A stretch of DNA of 64,000 nt, taken from the NCBI GenBank assembly GCA_002712005.1, contig PASP01000005.1, positions 111,708-175,707 on the forward strand. Reading direction: 5' to 3'. Position numbers and translations under genes: made by a program. Positions 23,312 to 29,206 of the stretch are shown piece after piece. Position 1 is the stretch's first letter. The number at the start of each line of letters is the position of its first letter. This DNA comes from Halobacteriovoraceae bacterium. Its GTDB lineage: Bacteria > Bdellovibrionota > Bacteriovoracia > Bacteriovoracales > Bacteriovoracaceae. The notes below the pieces were generated by a model. It was not told the DNA's origin. It saw nothing but the letters and a program-made list of their open reading frames with translations, and did no database searches.

Positions 23312-26002
23312 GTGAAAGCTTACCTGATGGTAGTGAGTCTACTTTTCCATTCATCGATGGGTATGGCCGGGGGTCATGCTCTTAGCCTATCTAGAGAAGC
23401 CTGTATACCTCTTCAATGTGGCCAAATGGCAAGACTTCGTCTCAGCCACACTGGAACAGAGAAATTATTAAGAATAGGGATTGATACTATTACAGATAAT
23501 TTTGACTTAAAAGATTTGGCCAACGAAGCCCTTGATAAAGAAGACTTTCCCTTTCAATTCAATATTGGTTCAGAAGCGTCTCAAATATCCGCTCAAATAG
23601 ATGACCTTACTTTTAATGCCATTGAGTTTGGCAATAGTGAGGTTGATGTTGAGGGAGACAATATTCATGTATGCGTTCCTGTGGAAGAAATGGATATGAG
23701 TGTTGATGCCCAATTGGATATCAAAGGGCACTCCACTTCCCATAAAGGGGCTAGGGCCTTCGTCAATCCAGATTCCCCTTCCAAACCAAAGGTCTGCTTT
23801 AATGGCGAGATTGGATTAGACGGACAAGTAAAGGACTTAGTTCACATAGAAAATGATGTTCCTACTGATATCGGGCTTGAAACAAAAATGGCCATGCTCG
23901 ACATGGATTTAGAAAATGCTGATGAAGATGAAATTCTATTCACTTATATGTCTCTCTATTTTATGGAAGACAATCTTGATCTTCCCCTAAAATTTGATTG
24001 GCTCTCTATGTCCAGTTGGCAAGATGTCTTCACTCTAGTGGGAGATATTACGCCTGAGAATATGAAGAAAATGATGGACATGGACCTTATGAAAAATAAG
24101 CTTAAGGAGATTAAAGGTAGTCTTCCTCCTCGCCCTAAGTCGGATCGTCCCGAAGAAGGTCTGGTGAATTACTTAGGCAATTTAAAAGTGGATCTTAACT
24201 TAGAGGAAAATACGACCAAAGAAAATCCAAATGCAGATTATCTAGATCAGGTGTGGAATATTTGGAAAGAAGAATCAGAAGCAGAAATGAAGGCCGCTCC
24301 TGCCGAGGAGCCTGCCGGTGGACTTTATGGTTTATGGAGAAAAGCTGCCGATGCAGTTGTAGGTTTTAAAGACGATGTCGTTCAGTCTGCTCAAACTTTA
24401 AAAGACGGTTTTCTTCAAGCGAAAGCTCATCAGACAGAGGAGCTCATTCGATCTCGCTTTCTTCCCTATTTTCAAGAATCTTTTAATAATAGTGTTTCTG
24501 CCTCAGCACCAGTCATGGGTGCCTTGGCCAAAACAGCAGAAAAACATTTGATTCCTTTGGCCAAGAAGAAGGCCAATGAAGCCATTTCTAAACTTCAAAA
24601 CGCCTCTAATTTTGGCTCCATTACTCGTACAGAATTAAGTCGGCCATTTATCAATGCCCAAGACCTAGTAGATAGAGAGAGCTTAAAACGAATACAACAA
24701 TCTATGAATATGAGTAATTATAGTATTATTTCCAACCAAGTTCGAAATATTCGAGATATGCCCAATAAAGATCATATCATTGAGCAAACGGATAAAATTC
24801 TCCGCAATATTAGTCACTATGTTGATAGTGTAAGTTCCAATAGCTCAGATAGAAATGCTCAAAATTATCTTTCTGAAACGTTAATCCCCTATCTTGAGCA
24901 ACTAAGAGATAATATGTACTACCAAACGGGTGGTCATATCCCGAAAGATCTCAAAGATAAGACCTTACAACTTATTCAGGAGACAAGGGCAAAGTCCGCT
25001 ATTGTGGCAGAGAATATTAGCTACCGAAACAGAAATCTTGAACTTGAACTTTCCACTCGCTGGTTTAATGAATTATCCGGTGGTCCAGAAGTCACAGTCG
25101 CAACTGAGGAGCTTTGTGCTCAAGGGGTGGGTTCCATTGGTGAATCGACTAAAGTTAATAATGAAGAGCTACAATCCTATGACCTCTCGGGAACTCTCAA
25201 TATTGATGCCGTTAACGCTCTCTTAGAAAAGCTCGCAAAAGATGGTCAATTTGATTTTTGTCTCCACAATGGTGAAGTTCAAACCTGCTCAAGTGTAACA
25301 GGGAACTATAATAATCGCTGTCGCTTTGAGGATCCTCCTAGAGTCACTTGGAACTCATCAAGTCAAAAACATGAAATAAAATTAAGAGATCTTCAATGTG
25401 AAACTCGTATATTAAATGCTCAAGAAAAATGTGGCATCGGTGAAAGACGCTCTAAAATTCCAGTTCTTGGTTTCTTTGTGAACGCCTTGGGAAGCCTTGC
25501 AGGAGGTGCCTGTAAATTTATTTCAGATCAGGCCGATAATGTGGTCACCGGATCTATCGGTCAAAATTTAGTGGATGTCACTGTAGAGCTTGAACCTGAA
25601 ATTTGTGGAAATAGTGTTTGTATGGAACCGCATTTAAAAGACTCTAAAATTGTTACGGATATGGAAAATGTAAATCCAAACCTAGCAAGTATGATTGGTA
25701 AATTGGTTGGTATTGTAACTTCTCCCATTACCGATGTTGTGAAGAATGAAATTGTAGATGATGCACTTATGACTTTTGTAGAATCTGAAGTTTCTCAACC
25801 CCTTAGGGCACCAATTGGTATTTATCCTCAAAAAATCGTTTCAGAAAGAGGTCGTATCACCGTTCTCTCTAATATAGAGCCAGAAGAAGATTTAGGTGAT
25901 TTCTTTGCCGAGTGTGTAACAGGTGGAACAAATTGTAATACAGAGCACTTCCTCAATATAGATGCTGGTCATCAAAGTGAAAGAAGACCTAGCTCTCCCT
26001 AA
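23312..26002 (+). CDS. Large exported protein of unknown function
   Basis: 896 residues from a GTG. A signal peptide (MKAYLMVVSLLFHSSMGMAGG) covers about the first 20 residues, and no strong ribosome site is visible. The N-terminal third is beta-rich and acidic with scattered Cys (ACIPLQCGQ, VCVPVEE, VCFNGE). Residues about 260-580 are helical (QTEELIRSRFLPYFQESF, DQIRN-like heptads). The C-terminal third again has Cys pairs (FCLHNGEVQTCSS, CGNSVCMEP, ECVTGGTNCN). It ends near RPSSP without a membrane anchor. I recognise no family. Its size and the duplicated beta-type halves suggest a periplasmic or surface protein. It is followed 39 bases later by a small Cys-rich gene. Confidence 0.65.
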   Translation: MKAYLMVVSLLFHSSMGMAGGHALSLSREACIPLQCGQMARLRLSHTGTEKLLRIGIDTITDNFDLKDLANEALDKEDFPFQFNIGSEASQISAQIDDLTFNAIEFGNSEVDVEGDNIHVCVPVEEMDMSVDAQLDIKGHSTSHKGARAFVNPDSPSKPKVCFNGEIGLDGQVKDLVHIENDVPTDIGLETKMAMLDMDLENADEDEILFTYMSLYFMEDNLDLPLKFDWLSMSSWQDVFTLVGDITPENMKKMMDMDLMKNKLKEIKGSLPPRPKSDRPEEGLVNYLGNLKVDLNLEENTTKENPNADYLDQVWNIWKEESEAEMKAAPAEEPAGGLYGLWRKAADAVVGFKDDVVQSAQTLKDGFLQAKAHQTEELIRSRFLPYFQESFNNSVSASAPVMGALAKTAEKHLIPLAKKKANEAISKLQNASNFGSITRTELSRPFINAQDLVDRESLKRIQQSMNMSNYSIISNQVRNIRDMPNKDHIIEQTDKILRNISHYVDSVSSNSSDRNAQNYLSETLIPYLEQLRDNMYYQTGGHIPKDLKDKTLQLIQETRAKSAIVAENISYRNRNLELELSTRWFNELSGGPEVTVATEELCAQGVGSIGESTKVNNEELQSYDLSGTLNIDAVNALLEKLAKDGQFDFCLHNGEVQTCSSVTGNYNNRCRFEDPPRVTWNSSSQKHEIKLRDLQCETRILNAQEKCGIGERRSKIPVLGFFVNALGSLAGGACKFISDQADNVVTGSIGQNLVDVTVELEPEICGNSVCMEPHLKDSKIVTDMENVNPNLASMIGKLVGIVTSPITDVVKNEIVDDALMTFVESEVSQPLRAPIGIYPQKIVSERGRITVLSNIEPEEDLGDFFAECVTGGTNCNTEHFLNIDAGHQSERRPSSP

Positions 26003-26460: not shown

Positions 26461-26775
26461 CTAAGGACAGGCTACAATCTTAAAAGGATCTTCGCTTTGA
26501 AAAAGCTTCTCTACCGTTGCACTTAGAACTTCCTTACTGGGCTTATCGAGAGCAAAATAAAAGATCTTCTCCCCTTCAACGGAAGCAATCTGATATACAT
26601 AGGGGCTTATCACTTTATCGAAACAGACTCCCTTTTTATAAAGGGTATCTTTACTGTCTTCAGCGGCTACAGAGTTTTCTGCACCTTCTTTATTTGTCGG
26701 GTTCTTTCGGTCTGATTGGCAACTACTTAAGCAAAGGATGCTGGCCAAAAGTGCATATCCCAAAAATCTATTCAT
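26461..26775 (-). CDS. Short lipoprotein
   Basis: 104 residues. The signal MNRFLGYALLASILCLSSC ends in a lipobox (LSSC). The mature part has two further Cys (GVCFDK and VACP at the C-terminus) that could form a disulfide, with a small beta-like domain. I recognise no family. It is convergent with the gene at 26042. Confidence 0.6.
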   Translation of the reverse strand: MNRFLGYALLASILCLSSCQSDRKNPTNKEGAENSVAAEDSKDTLYKKGVCFDKVISPYVYQIASVEGEKIFYFALDKPSKEVLSATVEKLFQSEDPFKIVACP

Positions 26776-27049
26776 ATGTATTTAACCTTTTAAAGATTCA
26801 ATTCATTGTATAATTTCTTCGAAAAAACACAAACTTATGTAGGTAAAGTCCAATATTGCCTCTATTCGTATGCACCCTAGAAATTCATCCTGAAACTGAC
26901 AAAGAGTGATTACCATACCTTAGCAAAAAAGTAGGATAAAAAAAGATCATCGCTTATAATGCCCTTATCAGGGTTAAAAACTTAAATTAGAAGGAGGCGT
27001 TTTTAACACTACCCTGTTTTTGAAGTAAACTCACTCATTTGGAGGATAC

Positions 27050-27121
27050 ATGATTTCAAACCGGGAACTCTTTAAGCTACTCTCTATCGGAGAGGTTGGA
27101 CCTCCGGGGAATTCACCCTAA
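27050..27121 (+). CDS. Possible 23-residue small protein or leader peptide
   Basis: An ATG at 27050 has TTGGAGG four bases upstream and opens a 23-codon frame ending in TAA (MISNRELFKLLSIGEVGPPG, then NSP). It lies inside the structured transcript at 26955-27227 and no larger gene follows on this strand. The CCTCC inside the frame could pair back to the ribosome site. It may be a translated small protein, or the SD-like GGAGG may serve as a protein-binding site. Confidence 0.3.
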   Translation: MISNRELFKLLSIGEVGPPGNSP

Positions 27122-27176
27122 AATTTTTTGCTTAAAGAACCTGATCCAATCAGGATGACATTAAAGAAATAAGATA

Positions 27177-27227
27177 ACCCTCTTCTCATCACTTCGAACC
27201 GTAAGTCATGGAAGAGGGTCTTTTTTT
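27177..27227 (+). terminator. Strong Rho-independent terminator of the structured RNA
   Basis: ACCCTCTTC (27177-27185) pairs perfectly with GAAGAGGGT (27211-27219) around a 25-base loop, followed by C and seven T. No gene on the plus strand lies directly upstream except the 23-codon frame, which supports an independent transcript. Confidence 0.85.
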
Positions 27228-27247: not shown

Positions 27248-28561
27248 CTATAGAGCTGGTTTCCCGGCACGGGCCACTATTGCTCCATCTTTCATCACAA
27301 CTACCCCACCCACAATTGTATGAGTTGGCCTACCTGTAATCTCTTTACCATGAAAGGGAGTCCATCCAGACTTCGAAGCTTGATCTTCATTTTTAATGGT
27401 AAATTTTCCCTTTAAGTCTACAACGGTAAAATCAGCATCCTTTCCAATTTCAATCTTCCCCTTATTCAGATTCCAAAGTTCAGCCGGCCTCTCTGCCATA
27501 AGCTCCATTAGGCGCGAGAGTTTTAACCTTCCTTCATGAACATGGTTGAGCATAAGAGGAATGATCGTTTGGACTCCGGGCATACCGGAAGGACTCTTTG
27601 GATAGCCCTGATCTTTTTCTTCTCTTGTATGAGGAGCGTGATCACTTCCCATAACATCAACAGTGCCATCGAGAATTCCCGCCCATAGCCCTTCTTGATG
27701 ATCCTTTGTTCTTATAGGTGGATTCATCTGAGCATAGGTTCCCAATTGGTCATAGCAATCAGGAGCATTTAAAGTCAGATGTTGAGGGAGAACTTCAACG
27801 GTACAAATATCTTTATTCTCTCTAAGAAAGTCGATTTCATAGCGAGTCGTAATATGAAGGACATGTACTTTTCTTCCCGCCTCTCTGGCCAGTCCAATTA
27901 AACGCTTTGTTGAAGAAAGGGCCGTATCTACATTTCTCCACACAGGATGATCATGGGCCGTGGTTGCCTTATCTCTAATCGCAATATTTTCACGTAACAT
28001 ATCTTCGTTTTCACTGTGACAAGAAATCATTCCTTTCGTATTCTTAAAAACATTGATCAAAGCTTCTCTTTCATACAGAAGCAGTGAGCCTGTAGAGCTA
28101 CCCAGAAAAATTTTAATTCCACAGCAGCCCTCTAAATCAGATGCCTTCTTAAGTTCTTCCAAATTATGTTGAGTCGCTCCCATAAAGAAACCAAAATTAA
28201 CATAGGAGACTTTTTTCGCCTTATCGACTTTCTCTTTAATAGATGCTTCATCCGTAGTTGGGGGCGTAGTATTTGGCATCTCGAAAAAAGTGCATACTCC
28301 CCCAAGAGCAGCTGCCATGGAACCCGTTTCCAAATCTTCCTTATGAGTCAATCCTGGATCACGAAAGTGAACCTGTGAATCAATGAGACCTGGAAGAACT
28401 TGTTGTCCAGAGAGATCGAGAATTTTAGAGACCTCTTTTTCACTGAGATCAATCGAATCTTCAATTCGAGTGATGACCCCTTTTTCTACTAGTATATCTT
28501 TTTTTTGCAGGCTACCATCTTTATAGATTTCACCATTTTTTAAGAGAAGATCTGCAATCAT
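27248..28561 (-). CDS. pyrC: Dihydroorotase
   Basis: 437 residues, amidohydrolase fold. Metal-site motifs are GLIDSQVHFRDPGLTHKEDL, the carboxylated Lys in GIKIFLGSSTG, His in CHSEN, HVLHITT and the Asp in GSDHAPHTREEK. It cyclises carbamoyl-aspartate to dihydroorotate in pyrimidine synthesis in the cytoplasm. The first His of the usual H-x-H is Gln (QVH), which I recall from a recognised branch that reads QVHFREPG, so this need not be inactivating. It is the second gene of a unit, 9 bases after a membrane zinc-finger-like gene. Confidence 0.85.
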   Translation of the reverse strand: MIADLLLKNGEIYKDGSLQKKDILVEKGVITRIEDSIDLSEKEVSKILDLSGQQVLPGLIDSQVHFRDPGLTHKEDLETGSMAAALGGVCTFFEMPNTTPPTTDEASIKEKVDKAKKVSYVNFGFFMGATQHNLEELKKASDLEGCCGIKIFLGSSTGSLLLYEREALINVFKNTKGMISCHSENEDMLRENIAIRDKATTAHDHPVWRNVDTALSSTKRLIGLAREAGRKVHVLHITTRYEIDFLRENKDICTVEVLPQHLTLNAPDCYDQLGTYAQMNPPIRTKDHQEGLWAGILDGTVDVMGSDHAPHTREEKDQGYPKSPSGMPGVQTIIPLMLNHVHEGRLKLSRLMELMAERPAELWNLNKGKIEIGKDADFTVVDLKGKFTIKNEDQASKSGWTPFHGKEITGRPTHTIVGGVVVMKDGAIVARAGKPAL

Positions 28562-28570
28562 ATTTTGACC

Positions 28571-29206
28571 TTATTGTTTGAGTTTCTGATATTGATTTTT
28601 TAATAAGTCTAATTCTTCTTTTCTTACCACTAACTTCACATAACTCTCGATGAAGTCTCCCTCTATATTAATCCTATAATGGGTAGATAAAATGGAAGGG
28701 GTTTTCTTAAGTTCCCAAATGGATTTCTTAAAGTCGTATAAAGGTAAGGCCGACTCAGGAATATCGGGATTCGTTTTTATAGTATCTAGCTCATCCCAAT
28801 CATGGGAGAGATATAATCGAAAATGATCTTCACAAAAGGAAAGACCATCATGTTCTTTAATACATTCGTCACAAAAAGCATTTTGGCAGATGGCGCAGAC
28901 CCCAGCAGCATGATCACTAGGATGATGAAAGCAGTAGTGCTTAGGAGCTTCGGGAAGAATTTCTATTTTGTTTGAATCTTTGGAAATATCATTAGAAATA
29001 TTTAGGGGTGCTGCTTGAGATACGGATTTCGTCTGTGCTAATTCGCTCTTAGGCGATAGATCTTTGAGTCGATCACGATGATCAGATTGAAAAACTGCGC
29101 CTTGTGACTTGAGAATTTTGTACCCTAGAAAAAGCAAAACCCCTACGAGTACAATCACTAAAAATATTAGGGCCAAAACAAGATAAATAATCCATTCTTG
29201 GGACAC
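28571..29206 (-). CDS. Membrane-anchored protein with a B-box-like Cys/His cluster
   Basis: 211 residues from a GTG with GAGGAG eight bases upstream. One N-terminal membrane helix (about 7-30) is followed by a charged linker. A metal-binding region at about 91-126 (CFHHPSDHAAGVCAICQNAFCDECI ... FCEDH; eight or more Cys/His) resembles a B-box or treble-clef zinc finger. A C-terminal helical domain follows. No family is certain. It is upstream of and probably co-transcribed with pyrC, which may simply reflect shared transcription. Confidence 0.65.
   Translation of the reverse strand: MSQEWIIYLVLALIFLVIVLVGVLLFLGYKILKSQGAVFQSDHRDRLKDLSPKSELAQTKSVSQAAPLNISNDISKDSNKIEILPEAPKHYCFHHPSDHAAGVCAICQNAFCDECIKEHDGLSFCEDHFRLYLSHDWDELDTIKTNPDIPESALPLYDFKKSIWELKKTPSILSTHYRINIEGDFIESYVKLVVRKEELDLLKNQYQKLKQ

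Follow-up and report, generated by a model that had tools for sequence, protein, structure and literature searches.

A structured, terminator-bounded region of a Halobacteriovoraceae genome is most likely the mRNA of a stand-alone small-protein gene

The region described here lies in a 64,000-nucleotide stretch of contig PASP01000005.1 (assembly GCA_002712005.1, Halobacteriovoraceae bacterium), referred to below as the window. It is flanked by a divergent lipoprotein gene on one side and a convergent dihydroorotase gene on the other; the features of the region and its flanks are as follows.

26461..26775, minus strand: neighbouring gene for a small lipoprotein, oriented divergently and not part of the small gene's unit
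26955..26960, plus strand: TATAAT, candidate -10 box, weak and read from the sequence
26968..27018, plus strand: 5' hairpin region with a perfect 9-bp stem, GTTAAAAAC/GTTTTTAAC (26973-26981 / 26999-27007)
26993..26997, plus strand: upstream GGAGG in the 5' hairpin loop, with no usable start codon after it
27041..27045, plus strand: GGAGG, putative Shine-Dalgarno sequence of the small gene, 4 nt ahead of the ATG
27050..27121, plus strand: predicted small protein gene, 23 codons and TAA, MISNRELFKLLSIGEVGPPGNSP; seven homologues with a coding-type substitution pattern
27083..27106, plus strand: codons 12-19, SIGEVGPP; invariant in 7/7 proteins, third base variable in 8/8 codons
27101..27105, plus strand: CCTCC, complementary to GGAGG, part of the Pro-Pro codons and not conserved
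27157..27162, plus strand: GACATT motif of the 3' UTR, present in 6/7 homologues
27177..27227, plus strand: intrinsic terminator, ACCCTCTTCT ... GGAAGAGGGT then CTTTTTTT, with its hairpin at 27177-27219
27248..28561, minus strand: convergent dihydroorotase gene of pyrC type (NCBIfam NF006559, E 1.8e-178)

The original prediction had described a free-standing, structured, terminator-bounded RNA with repeated GGA motifs and no conventional gene. The elements it named were all located in the sequence, namely TATAAT, the 9-bp stem with its loop motif, two GGAGG, CCTCC and a strong terminator with a U tract. The stem exposes AGAAGGAGGC in its loop and can be extended across a bulge by CAGGG/CCCTG. 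The TATAAT is present, but a promoter scan did not report it, so an acceptable -35 box at a spacing of 16-18 nt is lacking. The terminator has a loop above the length limit of a simple scan and so escaped it; a wider scan detected the terminator. None of 200 shuffles folds as well as the 273-nt strand (z -2.94). Structure and terminator are thus present as described, but the part that is conserved is a reading frame, and "no conventional gene" holds only insofar as the gene is very short.

Further out on the upstream side, an 896-residue protein with a GTG start and a signal-like N-terminus is encoded at 23312-26002 (plus strand), without a significant Pfam match. The lipoprotein at 26461-26775 has about 100 residues, no Pfam match, a terminal CP and a conserved C-x-D/E...LSPYVYQ-like segment. 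Beyond pyrC, positions 28571-29206 (minus strand) encode a protein of 211 residues without a Pfam model match; it has a membrane helix at the N-terminus and a Cys/His-rich CxNHPxDHAxGxCxICxxxxCxxCxxEH segment that is conserved in the family.

A plain DNA search of related genomes returned mostly chance matches. Two weak ones, in genomes G003 and G005 of the same genus as the window, opened the way to the homologues: both cover the same segment, CTCTCTATCGGAGAGGTTGGACCTCC, the one in G003 adjoins a relative of the neighbouring lipoprotein, and both loci, when read, hold a small frame with the protein end SIGEVGPP. The homologous frame occurs once per genome in seven Bacteriovoracales genomes, six from one genus and one (G022) from another. 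A degenerate IGEVGPP pattern has exactly one site in each of seven genomes of the family, and a reversed control pattern has none. A profile (HMM) search recovered the same seven with E values of at most 4e-12, the next match being at 3e-3. No further case of the full-length pattern was found among 369 genomes of the phylum, and no member was seen beside pyrC or the zinc-binding-type gene of other genera. In 85,000 named species the pattern matched seven times, six times in Bacteriovoracia/Oligoflexia (Bacteriovoracales-type) MAGs; the seventh match, in Sphingobacterium, was rejected as a chance frame. The viral contigs searched gave no match. G002 (84% complete) is the sole member of the genus without the small gene, which says little since the neighbouring gene is missing there as well. 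This distribution most likely reflects a small-protein family common to a small group of Bdellovibrio-like bacteria.

The seven proteins are MISNRELFKLLSIGEVGPPGNSP in the window and MISLREFFRLHSIGEVGPP, MITISELFKFLSIGEVGPPT, MISLRELFKFLSIGEVGPP, MITNKELFKLLSIGEVGPP, MITLTEMFKFLSIGEVGPPSS and MINIGEMFRLLSIGEVGPP in the relatives, where length ranges from 19 to 23 residues. All fit MI-x3-E-x-F-x3-SIGEVGPP over 19 codons free of indels, followed by 0-4 variable residues, and 12 of these 19 positions never vary (M1, I2, E6, F8 and S12-P19). Variation falls on the third codon position: 6, 6 and 18 of 19 columns vary at the first, second and third positions, and pairwise differences number 75, 64 and 240. 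Within SIGEVGPP the variable columns are 1, 1 and 8 of 8, the first two arising from Ser TCN/AGY changes. Amino-acid identity is 0.77 in frame; the two alternative frames, interrupted by 12-13 stops, give 0.30 and 0.34, and none of 10000 column shuffles reached the in-frame value. The codon test was run on the same sequences that identified the homologues, and the search pattern fixed some codon positions, though not all, so that the shuffle count is strong but not independent support for coding. The weak DNA matches that came first did not dictate either the third-base variation or the constant spacing. Aligned as DNA, the unit has nearly all its invariant columns inside the frame, which is the only strongly conserved part of the region, and a Shine-Dalgarno sequence (GGAGG or GAGGGG) stands 9-14 nt ahead of the ATG in all seven homologues. 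It is thus highly probable that 27050-27121 is a coding frame, translated into a small protein.

The same comparison bears on the proposal that the RNA sequesters CsrA/RsmA in the manner of CsrB or RsmY/RsmZ. The region resembles these RNAs in being free-standing and terminator-bounded and in carrying GGAGG in a hairpin loop, and the genome encodes one CsrA. A CsrB-like sponge requires many conserved GGA sites. The nine GGA triplets of the original prediction were indeed counted, but they are no excess over the 7.4 expected from dinucleotide shuffles (p = 0.25); the seven homologous units hold 9, 4, 2, 4, 2, 4 and 6, never above their shuffles, and the sites are not conserved. E. coli CsrB has 22 GGA sites (PMC7652899), against 2-6 in the homologues here. 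Only two ANGGA occur in the region, one of them inside the terminator, and codons, not GGA sites, are what is conserved. A covariance match to a known RNA family was also sought: the Rfam scan of the window gave no match at gathering scores, just spurious weak ones, and that of the seven homologous loci gave nothing credible. The comparison largely refutes the sponge reading, which we regard as extremely improbable.

Two further proposals for the GGAGG sites were rejected. Occlusion of the Shine-Dalgarno sequence by CCTCC would require the pair to be kept, but CCTCC, part of the Pro-Pro codons, is found in only 3/7 homologues, the others carrying CCCCC or CCACC and still retaining GGAGG or GAGGGG. 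For the upstream GGAGG to serve another translated frame, a start codon at a usable distance would be needed, and the window and G001 have none.

Conservation of the upstream element itself is suggestive. A second GGAGG lies at -57 to -93 in 5/7 homologues, where chance per sequence is about 0.02-0.08, and in all five it sits inside a hairpin of 8-10 bp; single p values for the hairpin are 0.03-0.14 and the combined p is about 0.004, with two of the five related and not independent. G005 and G006 lack the site. The hairpin might act as a stabilising 5' element, offer the ribosome a standby site or bind CsrA. By analogy with other CsrA targets, CsrA might repress the mRNA by binding both the GGAGG of the 5' hairpin loop and that of the Shine-Dalgarno sequence. 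Two GGA sites, one of them in a hairpin loop, are present in 5/7 homologues, and the genome of the window encodes CsrA, but the preferred ANGGA context is found in the window and not in most homologues, and the two genomes without the upstream site weaken the case further. Such repression seems rather unlikely to us; it is compatible with the small-protein explanation and not an alternative that excludes it.

Gene order around the frame argues for a unit of its own. The divergent lipoprotein recurs in G001, G003 and G022 and is absent in G005 and G006. In G022, of the other genus, the order is that of the window, with the lipoprotein divergent and pyrC adjacent; pyrC is not adjacent in G001 and G003, and neither neighbour is found in G005 and G006. 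The convergent neighbour in G001, G003, G005 and G006 is a zinc-binding-type gene, which lies two genes away in the window. In none of the homologues examined does a same-strand gene follow, the downstream genes being convergent, and terminators end six of the seven units (the window and five of the other six). With no same-strand gene after it and, in most genomes, a terminator to itself, the gene forms an independent unit. The alternative of a translated 23-codon leader therefore survives in its first half: translation is backed by the comparison, but the frame does not lead into any gene, and it was rejected as the leader peptide of a downstream gene.

The conservation of the protein end raises the question of ribosome arrest. 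An arrest peptide would stall the ribosome at Gly-Pro-Pro by the stop codon and control its own RNA or a small RNA derived from the 3' end. The strongest conservation indeed lies in eight residues at or near the end of the frame and closes with GPP, PP-stop terminates 4/7 frames, and a conserved motif follows in the 3' UTR. Pro-Pro motifs slow ribosomes and EF-P relieves the slowing (PMC5461404), and regulatory translation of CutF involves its proline-rich C-terminal segment, although its proline motif alone did not prove a strong stalling sequence (PMC9973294). The frame shares with regulatory arrest or leader peptides of the TnaC, SecM and CutF type a length of about 20 codons, a conservation peak near the C-terminus and a terminal proline. 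It differs from them in that a terminator follows directly, with no downstream gene to regulate, and the residues after PP vary (stop, GNSP, SS, T), so that termination at PP is not constant. Both points speak against an arrest peptide of the usual kind, which is thinkable but distinctly unlikely.

Outside the frame, GACATT lies 0 to 35 nt after the stop codon, within about 40 nt of it, in six of the seven homologues, and none of 1000 shuffles yielded a 6-mer shared by six sequences. The 3' UTR motif and the 5' hairpin together suggest that the RNA itself may have a function. A translated mRNA that also pairs with target mRNAs through its 3' portion, around GACATT, would account for this motif, and G001 and G003 have an additional structured stretch ahead of the terminator. 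GACATT is, however, missing in G004, its position shifts among the others, and the remainder of the 3' UTR does not align among the homologues, which leaves this dual function doubtful. Arrest and the 3' element could also be combined: stalling on SIGEVGPP near the stop of a free-standing RNA with no downstream gene would control the stability or processing of that RNA, releasing or protecting a regulatory segment around GACATT. We consider this very unlikely.

We infer that the region is most likely the mRNA of a stand-alone gene for a protein of about 20 amino acids with SIGEVGPP at or near its end. It is probable that this gene is free-standing and monocistronic and encodes 23 residues in the window. 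RNA polymerase would start near 26965, and translation would begin at the ATG (27050), guided by the GGAGG at 27041. The predicted transcript of about 260 nt would end at the 27177-27227 terminator, which would also separate the small gene from convergent pyrC. Transcription and translation of the frame are deduced from its evolution. A variable N-terminal half, an invariant C-terminal octamer and a free tail of 0-4 residues suggest that SIGEVGPP is the working part, by docking or at the ribosome. A peptide acting through the motif is favoured; the segment may dock on a partner while the tail of variable length would be dispensable, but the mode of action is a guess, and our confidence in any particular one is lower than in coding.

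Free-standing genes of this kind (smORFs) are catalogued in GMSC (PMC11364881) and sORFdb (PMC11796252). The gene resembles them in its short frame, Shine-Dalgarno sequence, conserved protein, own terminator and its being overlooked by standard gene finding; the marks by which such genes are judged, amino-acid conservation with third-base variation and a properly spaced ribosome-binding site in homologues, are both seen here. It differs from them in that no similar family was found in Pfam, NCBIfam, PHROGs or PDB; a PDB match to the phage adaptor Gp50 (E 1.2) was not significant, and the literature on Bacteriovorax small proteins or the SIGEVGPP motif yielded nothing relevant. By these databases it is a new, narrow family of a known gene kind, which may be an anonymous GMSC or sORFdb entry. 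It adds a lineage-specific small-protein family with a nearly invariant eight-residue motif in a group of Bdellovibrio relatives seen chiefly in metagenomes. Because SIGEVGPP is exactly conserved across two genera, the idea of a specific partner, or of an effect on the ribosome, can be tested directly. The case also illustrates how a reading of one sequence can make a conserved gene of 19-23 codons resemble a structured regulatory RNA.

Some minor observations concern the peptide and individual relatives. A membrane-binding amphipathic helix was considered and rejected, the hydrophobic moment not exceeding that of shuffles and no significant helix being found. G003 and G001 (loci L057 and L059) share a stretch that looks structured, GGATTTYGCCCGAG...GGCCGGCCTCTT...GCCTGGTGAAACC, about 100-250 nt past the small gene and ahead of the terminator; Rfam gives nothing for it at E 2 or better, and it may be a separate small RNA. 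In G004 the small gene is followed by a partial second copy of the pyrC 3' end (contig CALHBL010000407.1, L100:3298-3594), the complete pyrC lying at 550-1857, which points to a local duplication or an assembly effect.
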